From positions 1 through 41,536 of the IMG/VR virus record IMGVR_UViG_3300011258_001284: DNA of 41,536 bases; one strand, 5' to 3'. This stretch comes from a virus. The notes beneath the pieces were generated by a model. That model was not told where the DNA came from and did not search any database. It saw nothing but the letters and a program-made list of their open reading frames with translations. The translations under genes and the position numbers were made by a program. The stretch's first letter is position 1. The number at the start of each line of letters is the position of its first letter. Below, piece by piece: positions 26,887 to 28,501 of the stretch.

Positions 26887-27282
26887 ATGTCCGCATTGTA
26901 CGAGATTCGAGCCTACCTGAACGCCTTTCGCATCCACCGAGCAGGCGCCCCCGCTGGCTCGAAGCACGTAGAGCAGCACGCTTGCGAGCATGTAGCCAAG
27001 GCGCGATTGGACGCCTTGAACGCCACCGCGCCGAAGCCCCGTAAGATCTCCGCCCCAGCTGCTGGTGTATCACCCGCACCAGGCAAGACGGCTGAACTGC
27101 CCTTGGACGTGGTGGACGCGGACCTGTCGATACTCGATGGCTCGCTGTCCCGGCTGGCGACCGCTTTGGGTGACGGCGCCTGTGACGACTACCTGCCCGC
27201 GCTGCTCGAAGCGGAGGAGAACGGCAAGACCCGGAAGGGCGCTGTGGCCATGATCAAGAGCCGCATTGCCGAGACAGCCTGA
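26887..27282 (+). CDS. Rightward moron-like protein
   Basis: A 131-residue protein encoded against the direction of the head genes, between the scaffold and the Mu-gpF-like gene. The N-terminal part is basic and helical (SALYEIRAYLNAFRIHR), a Pro/Ala linker follows near 50-68, and the C-terminal part is acidic and helical. It has its own leader and a strong terminator hairpin, the signature of a moron. The function is unknown. Confidence 0.55.
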   Translation: MSALYEIRAYLNAFRIHRAGAPAGSKHVEQHACEHVAKARLDALNATAPKPRKISAPAAGVSPAPGKTAELPLDVVDADLSILDGSLSRLATALGDGACDDYLPALLEAEENGKTRKGAVAMIKSRIAETA

Positions 27283-27290
27283 ACACAAGA

Positions 27291-27321
27291 AAGCCCGATG
27301 GATGCTGTTTCCACCGGGCTT
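27291..27321. terminator. Bidirectional terminator hairpin
   Basis: AAGCCCG (27291-27297) pairs with CGGGCTT (27315-27321), and the stem extends after one A-C mismatch by TGG/CCA. T-rich tracts follow on both strands (TTCTTGGTTT rightward, TTTCTTG leftward). It ends the rightward gene at 27282 and could also end transcription of the leftward tRNA-like element. Confidence 0.7.
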
Positions 27322-27329
27322 CTTGGTTT

Positions 27330-27423
27330 GGTGACCAGCAATCACCGTGCCGCTGACGCTCTGACCACCTGAGCTACACGGCATAGCCGTGACGGGATTT
27401 GAACCCGCGACCTCCATAGGCAC
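27330..27423 (-). ncRNA. Circularly permuted tRNA-like element
   Basis: Read leftward, this 94-bp stretch holds tRNA arms in permuted order. It starts with GTGCC, then a variable-loop-like AGGTC and a canonical T arm (GCGGG-TTCAAAT-CCCGT, 27392-27408). A closed acceptor-type stem follows directly (CACGGC-TAT-GCCGTG, 27377-27391), then T8-A9 and a canonical D arm (GCTC-AGGTGGTCA-GAGC, 27358-27374). After GTCAGC comes GGCAC, which pairs with the opening GTGCC, and then a 5-bp stem with a 7-nt loop (GGTGA-TTGCTGG-TCACC, 27330-27346) with T33 in place and GCT at the anticodon position. A normal tRNA would run acceptor, D, anticodon, T. The 3-nt acceptor loop leaves little room for mature ends. 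It could be a permuted tRNA, a tRNA mimic or a rearranged relic. Confidence 0.55.
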
Positions 27424-27430
27424 ACCCAGC

Positions 27431-28501
27431 CTAAACAGGGGAAGGCAACTCCGCAAGCGTTAGGATGCGCGTCACATCAGCGAAGCCGCCTATCTTGACC
27501 TTGCCCTGCTCGTAGAGCTCCCACCGGGTCGGGCCAAGGATCTCGACCTGGTTGGCTTTGGACTGCCGAGAGAACCACTCTGGATAGCTCATGTTCTGGG
27601 GCAGGCTCCCGTTCATGCGCTCACGGTCTCGGCGGGTCAGCCCTACTGGCAGCCCCAGCTCCTGCCACGACTTGGTCAGGGGCGCATCAAAGCACCGGCA
27701 GCGGGGGTGCAGCGGCGGCGTGATGTGCGGGCCGTGGATGGGGTTCGGGAGCAGTGTGCCGTCTGGGCCGTACAACCAGGTCACGCCATGCAACGGGGCG
27801 CAGACCATACACGTTCGTGTGTCCAGGGTGGCAAGCCGGGTAACGCCCTTGATGACGTCCAGGTTCGCCGCGTAGGTGTCGTGGGCCACGCTGTTGGCCA
27901 CGCGCTGGATCTCCGTCCGGGCGATGTTGCTGGCTTGGTTCTTATACGCCTCAACAAAGCCGGAAGCAGACCGGATAGCCTTCGCCGCCTTGTCCATGCT
28001 GGCACCCTGAGCGAGCGCCGTAGCCACTTCACGGGTCACCCGGTCGCGCATCTCGAGCAACCCAACGTCGATAGCCTCGCTCCACGTCCGCACCCCGATG
28101 GGCGTTGTGAGCGCCTTCACCACCTGAGCGTCAGGCACGCCGCCGAGCACTGCATGAATGGCTGTGGGGGTAGCCGCCTCCAGCCCAGCCACGACGGCGG
28201 GCCCCTCAGAGACAGCGGTCGCGGTGAGCTCATCGCCGAGACGGGCGCGCAACTCCTCCCGAGCAGTCCTCACCCGCCCATCAAGCTCACCCTGCAGAGC
28301 CTGTAGCCGTGCTCTCTCCCTGCTGGGTAGTGCGTCCTCACCTTCTACTGCGTCCGCTATGGCACCCAACTCACGCGAGACGTTGCCCATCGCCTGCTCA
28401 TAGGCTCCAAGCATGTCCCGCACGGTAGCCGTCTCCAAGCGAAGCAGCCGCAAGCGGTGGCTCACGGCGTAGTCGGCAAGGTCCTGGTTGACGCTGGGCA
28501 T
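27431..28501 (-). CDS. Mu gpF-like head morphogenesis protein
   Basis: A 356-residue minor head protein of the Mu gpF / SPP1 gp7 type. The conserved C-terminal part is clear: NIARTEIQRVANSVAHDTY near 190-210, then CMVCAPLHG (CxxC) near 232-240, then HPRCRC near 275-280. These Cys residues suggest metal binding. The N-terminal half is helical. The gene follows the portal gene, as in Mu and SPP1. The protein likely enters the capsid with the portal and assists assembly or DNA entry. Its end is 8 bases from the tRNA-like element. Confidence 0.8.
   Translation of the reverse strand: MPSVNQDLADYAVSHRLRLLRLETATVRDMLGAYEQAMGNVSRELGAIADAVEGEDALPSRERARLQALQGELDGRVRTAREELRARLGDELTATAVSEGPAVVAGLEAATPTAIHAVLGGVPDAQVVKALTTPIGVRTWSEAIDVGLLEMRDRVTREVATALAQGASMDKAAKAIRSASGFVEAYKNQASNIARTEIQRVANSVAHDTYAANLDVIKGVTRLATLDTRTCMVCAPLHGVTWLYGPDGTLLPNPIHGPHITPPLHPRCRCFDAPLTKSWQELGLPVGLTRRDRERMNGSLPQNMSYPEWFSRQSKANQVEILGPTRWELYEQGKVKIGGFADVTRILTLAELPSPV

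Follow-up and report, generated by a model that had tools for sequence, protein, structure and literature searches.

A probable Y RNA tRNA-like domain, without a Ro60 gene in the record, behind the MuF-like head gene of a viral contig

The tRNA mimics of Y RNAs are regarded as components of Ro60 complexes, the second half of a Y RNA being the stem that is bound by Ro60. A circularly permuted order of the tRNA-like parts is a known hallmark of these mimic domains. Permuted tRNA genes also exist in algae and archaea, where they yield real tRNAs. RNAs of the YrlA type are on record from bacteria as well as phages (PMC12282133, PMC7765460 and PMC8394870, all with reference to Chen et al., 2014 or to Sim and Wolin, 2018), including Y RNAs in mycobacteriophages (Chen et al., 2014, as cited in PMC12282133). 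TruB and DusA modify the tRNA-like domain of YrlA, which also binds PNPase (PMC8394870); it is left uncut by a DNA-damage-induced tRNA nuclease, of which it has been proposed to be a competitive inhibitor (PMC7790460).

In this study, we analyzed a stretch of viral DNA of 41,536 nucleotides (IMG/VR record IMGVR_UViG_3300011258_001284, hereafter the window), for which an initial annotation had proposed a circularly permuted tRNA-like element on the leftward strand. Sequence, fold and model matches place the tRNA-like module, basal stem included and 77 nt in length, at 27347–27423 (-). From 5' to 3', its order is basal stem, variable region, T arm, acceptor hairpin, T8-A9, D arm, residue 26 and again basal stem. 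The 5' strand of the basal stem, GTGCC-TA-TGG (27414–27423, -), occupies the position of the anticodon stem, and its 3' strand, TCA-GC-GGCAC, follows residue 26, a G (together 27347–27357, -); in the fold and the YrlA match GTGCC pairs with GGCAC and TGG with TCA, leaving a TA/GC internal loop in between. The variable region AGGTC (27409–27413, -) has a C48 that, by tRNA numbering, would be able to pair with G15. In the T arm, the strand GCGGG (27404–27408, -) and its partner CCCGT (27392–27396) enclose the loop TTCAAAT (27397–27403, -), which contains a TruB target sequence and in which U54-A58, U55 and C56 are tRNA-like and (near-)invariant in the aligned modules. The acceptor stem is a closed hairpin, CACGGC TAT GCCGTG (27377–27391, -), supported by the fold and by compensatory changes in the class described below. 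T8-A9 then leads into the D arm, GCTC AGGTGGTCA GAGC (27358–27376, -), with G15, G18, G19 and A21 retained.

Energy folding returns these arms as both the minimum free energy and the centroid structure, with 5 of 5 pairs in the T stem, 6 in the acceptor hairpin and 4 of 4 in the D stem, at an ordinary stability (z about -1). All residues for tRNA tertiary contacts are present when tRNA numbering is inferred (U8-A14, G15-C48, G18-U55, G19-C56 and U54-A58). When both strands were scanned for this architecture, the window gave a single site, whereas 300 dinucleotide shuffles gave none. The permuted element of the initial annotation thus stands, as do its acceptor stem closed by three nucleotides, the GTGCC/GGCAC pairing, TTC in the T loop, T8-A9 and GG in the D loop, and folding, which it had named as a check, reproduces the structure it described. 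Of its four arms, T, acceptor and D are recovered. The anticodon-like arm is not: the extra 3' hairpin GGTGATTGCTGGTCACC (27330–27346, -) lies outside the tRNA fold, the basal stem holds that position, and no similar hairpin was seen in the other modules inspected.

The Rfam model of YrlA, the bacterial Y RNA (RF02553), matches 27329–27432 over its full length with 51.2 bits (E 6e-11). The YrlA core alone accounts for 43.2 bits, so that the remaining 8 bits or so lie outside it. This score is below the Rfam gathering threshold of 69, yet phage Y RNAs that adjoin Ro60-type genes reach only 37–56 bits, indicating that the cut-off is narrow for phages. A model built from 22 other short-stem modules, with this one left out, has a single hit in the window, at this site (58.6 bits, E 1e-13). 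Together with the shuffle scan, these two matches rule out a chance fold. The tRNA model gives the module 20.8 bits, below threshold, and ARAGORN reports no ordinary tRNA; an ordinary tRNA or the remnant of a tandem tRNA was discarded on this ground and because no tRNA lies nearby. A group II intron match (RF02003, 23 bits against a threshold of 49) was judged spurious. In the closest DNA of named phages the match is limited to the tRNA-like core and no longer relative appears. Judged on sequence and model matches, the element is almost certainly the tRNA-like (effector) domain of a YrlA-type bacterial Y RNA, which agrees with the tRNA mimic that had been offered as one reading. Since the permuted order is known in Y RNAs and phage cases have been published, the main claim of novelty fails. 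The initial annotation knew of no well-established phage case, but PMC12282133 refers to Chen et al. (2014) for Y RNAs in mycobacteriophages, and several annotated phages have a 'Ro-like RNA binding protein' gene beside a Y RNA. Its comparison with permuted tRNAs of algae and archaea was likewise misplaced, as the element groups with bacterial Y RNAs (RF02553), which have the same arm order, and the circular RNA that it also considered finds no support in this analysis.

The element is therefore a known kind of RNA; unusual is that it comes without the Ro60-binding half and without a Ro60 gene. A TROVE gene (PF05731) was not found in the 41.5-kb record, a metagenomic contig that may be incomplete. 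The large ORFs scanned in the record showed no vWA, TROVE or RtcB domain, and a hidden or divergent Ro60 was rejected on that basis. Upstream of the module there is no Ro60-site strand, and the basal stem is short. For a wider survey, permuted modules were drawn from IMG/VR by patterns, overlaps with ordinary tRNAs were removed and the records were searched for TROVE. The Ro60-site strand (GGTTACTTC and variants, upstream) occurs in 36 of 37 TROVE-positive records versus 7 of 44 TROVE-negative ones, a split whose p value of 1e-14 is only indicative, the motif having been defined after viewing the sequences and the records being related. All 14 records that carry Ro60-less short-stem modules, often as tandem arrays, lack it, as does the window. 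One record (L206) is an exception to the split, combining tandem modules, Ro60 and the motif.

The survey also yielded some observations on individual phages. The module of Mycobacterium phage Whirlwind (L233:2420-2560) is Y RNA-like but is preceded by another upstream strand (CAGCAATTAAC...); it is located behind the gene of an RNA-binding protein noted as von Willebrand-like, which TROVE does not match; similar upstream strands occur in L093, L147, L190 and L065. In Xanthomonas phage 10KY502B (L239:2464-2531) and Microbacterium phage SM23 (L240:2467-2533), annotated tRNA-Thr and tRNA-Asn genes, respectively, overlap Y RNA modules adjoining TROVE genes.

Many unrelated phages contain Ro60-less short-stem modules, and complete isolate genomes are among them. 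Mycobacterium phage Rey has a single one and no Ro60 gene. Tandem modules are present in Microbacterium phage BAjuniper (L235:2494-2636) and in L034, L046 (with its own terminator), L133, L134, L135 and L225; several sit within tRNA arrays, and none of these records has a TROVE gene. In three further cases (L018:11345-11470, L154:4800-5000 and L191:9040-9220) a permuted module apparently replaces the anticodon arm of an ordinary tRNA, giving a two-headed tRNA-like RNA. The basal stem of the class occupies the position of the anticodon stem, and the window element has the features of the class, namely the core and a short basal stem in combination with neither Ro60 motif nor gene. Beside the tandem modules of L133 and L134, matches of about 80 nt to the tmRNA model cover both ends without the middle (L133:2616-2695; L134:2306-2384), and in phage Rey a GOLLD RNA (L231:2917-3340) shares the tRNA cluster with the Ro60-less module.

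In an alignment of 23 short-stem modules, pairing is kept in 92.3% of pair cells, and two-sided changes occur in 11 of 17 pairs, amounting to 78 cells versus a mean of 28 when shuffled and at most 23 when slid. The scanner required T, D and acceptor helices, and the modules were then hand-picked as Ro60-less. Because this selection favored T, D and acceptor pairing, two other results matter more. The basal stem, which the scanner did not require, shows two-sided changes in 4 of 4 pairs and is paired in 68.5% when read in one fixed register, from which some modules are offset by one. In addition, a pattern that does not demand acceptor pairing gave 83 hits, of which 58 form a 4/4 acceptor hairpin, compared to 2.9% in shuffles. 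We found no description of this Ro60-less class in the mostly open-access literature searched, and the wider class may be worth more attention than the single copy in the window.

The module begins 7 nt behind the stop codon of a gene for a MuF-like minor head protein (27431–28501, -). It is followed by an intrinsic terminator of 13 pairs, 7 of them G-C (27290–27322, -), between convergent genes; beyond it lies a 131-aa gene with no assigned function that is conserved in relatives (26887–27282, +). The MuF gene is common to five relatives, with 83–99% identity over the part present, but what lies behind it differs: nothing in L121, a 107-aa gene on the opposite strand in L124 and a 199-aa gene on the opposite strand in L125, while in L122 MuF itself is extended to 561 aa and L123 is identical to L122 over the stretch read. 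The module model has no match in any of the five records. With the site empty or occupied by other genes in these relatives, the element and its terminator are a cassette at a variable site behind MuF (window 27283–27431), recently gained or lost. Compensatory stem changes in relatives, to which the initial annotation had tied the fate of its claim, are strong across the class, whereas in the five close relatives the element is absent from the site.

We propose, with about even credence, that a Y RNA tRNA-like domain is kept here without Ro60 stem or gene, was gained as a terminator cassette and acts in trans as a tRNA look-alike. No sigma-70-like promoter was recognized for the element and the MuF stop is 7 nt away, so it would form the last part of the portal-MuF transcript, which the terminator would halt. 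As there is neither an anticodon loop nor a free acceptor end, charging and anticodon cleavage would both be impossible. The module would still present a tRNA elbow (T loop against D loop) and could thereby occupy a host protein that reads it; candidates would be PNPase, enzymes that modify or process tRNA, and defense nucleases directed against tRNA. Phage tRNAs are known to defeat tRNA-targeting defenses (PMC10264068; PMC11555353), which makes a decoy plausible; we tentatively suggest that the RNA serves as a decoy or ligand in trans. More doubtfully, phages might carry a distinct class of Ro60-independent permuted tRNA-like RNAs, uncuttable and unchargeable decoys for tRNA-reading host proteins; the window element would then belong to this class as a mobile, single module. 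The forms that such a class would take (single modules, tandem arrays in tRNA clusters, or modules that take the place of a tRNA anticodon arm) are proposed with the same reserve.

The location behind MuF could also be explained in cis, as with the stable mRNA cap that the initial annotation had offered, the fold and hairpins protecting the head-gene mRNA at its 3' end or recruiting or blocking PNPase there. The close spacing to the MuF stop, the hairpin and terminator that follow on the same strand and the lack of a recognized promoter in between are all consistent with such a 3'-UTR element. We nevertheless consider it rather unlikely, since the relatives do without the module and similar short-stem modules occur in tRNA arrays, not behind head genes. 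The element may instead descend from a complete Y RNA and be in decay, with no present function. The score residing outside the core is compatible with this, as the basal region allows a decayed Ro60 stem, and so are the missing Ro60 gene in the record and the absence of the element from relatives. Against decay, the T, acceptor and D helices and every tertiary-contact residue are perfect, and modules of this kind recur across unrelated phages; with no close relative keeping the element at the site, intact stems could, however, reflect recent arrival. On balance, we regard a remnant as unlikely.

A working Y RNA that uses the Ro60 (Rsr) of the host in trans would agree with the normal pairing of phage Y RNAs with Ro60 and with the presence of Rsr in some bacteria, but the strand found in nearly all Ro60-positive viral records is missing here and the basal stem is short, making this reading improbable. 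The order of parts is also what would be expected of a true permuted tRNA gene, of the kind whose product some algae and archaea circularize and process into a functional tRNA. Such a gene is extremely improbable: the fold has no anticodon arm, position 1-72 is a T-T closed in the 3-nt loop, neither CCA nor leader is present, and the Y RNA model matches better than that of tRNA (51.2 versus 20.8 bits).

Copies that lack both the Ro60 gene and the Ro60 stem, occurring in unrelated phages and in one case in a cassette behind a head gene, would imply that the tRNA mimic is useful in itself, perhaps for countering host defenses directed at tRNA. Compared to YrlA-type Y RNAs (RF02553; Chen et al., 2014; PDB 6CU1 according to PMC8394870), which are also found in phages, the window element has the same permuted domain, order and joints and matches over the full length of the model, but it has a short basal stem, lacks the Ro60-binding strand and a Ro60 gene in the record, and is situated behind a head gene with a terminator. 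The Y RNAs of actinophages and Xanthomonas phages (FuzzBuster, Cashline, Sparky, SM23 and Olaya) share its core at similar or lower Rfam scores (37–56 bits), yet they have the Ro60-site strand and lie next to a Ro60-type gene, whereas the window element has neither. The permuted tRNA genes of algae and archaea show the same order of parts but mature into real tRNAs, while the window element has no anticodon arm or usable acceptor end. Like the short-stem modules of Rey, BAjuniper and the viral contigs, it consists of the core and a basal stem at the anticodon-stem position with no Ro60 gene; those modules lie in tRNA arrays or in tandem, whereas the window element is single and carries a TA/GC internal loop in its stem.
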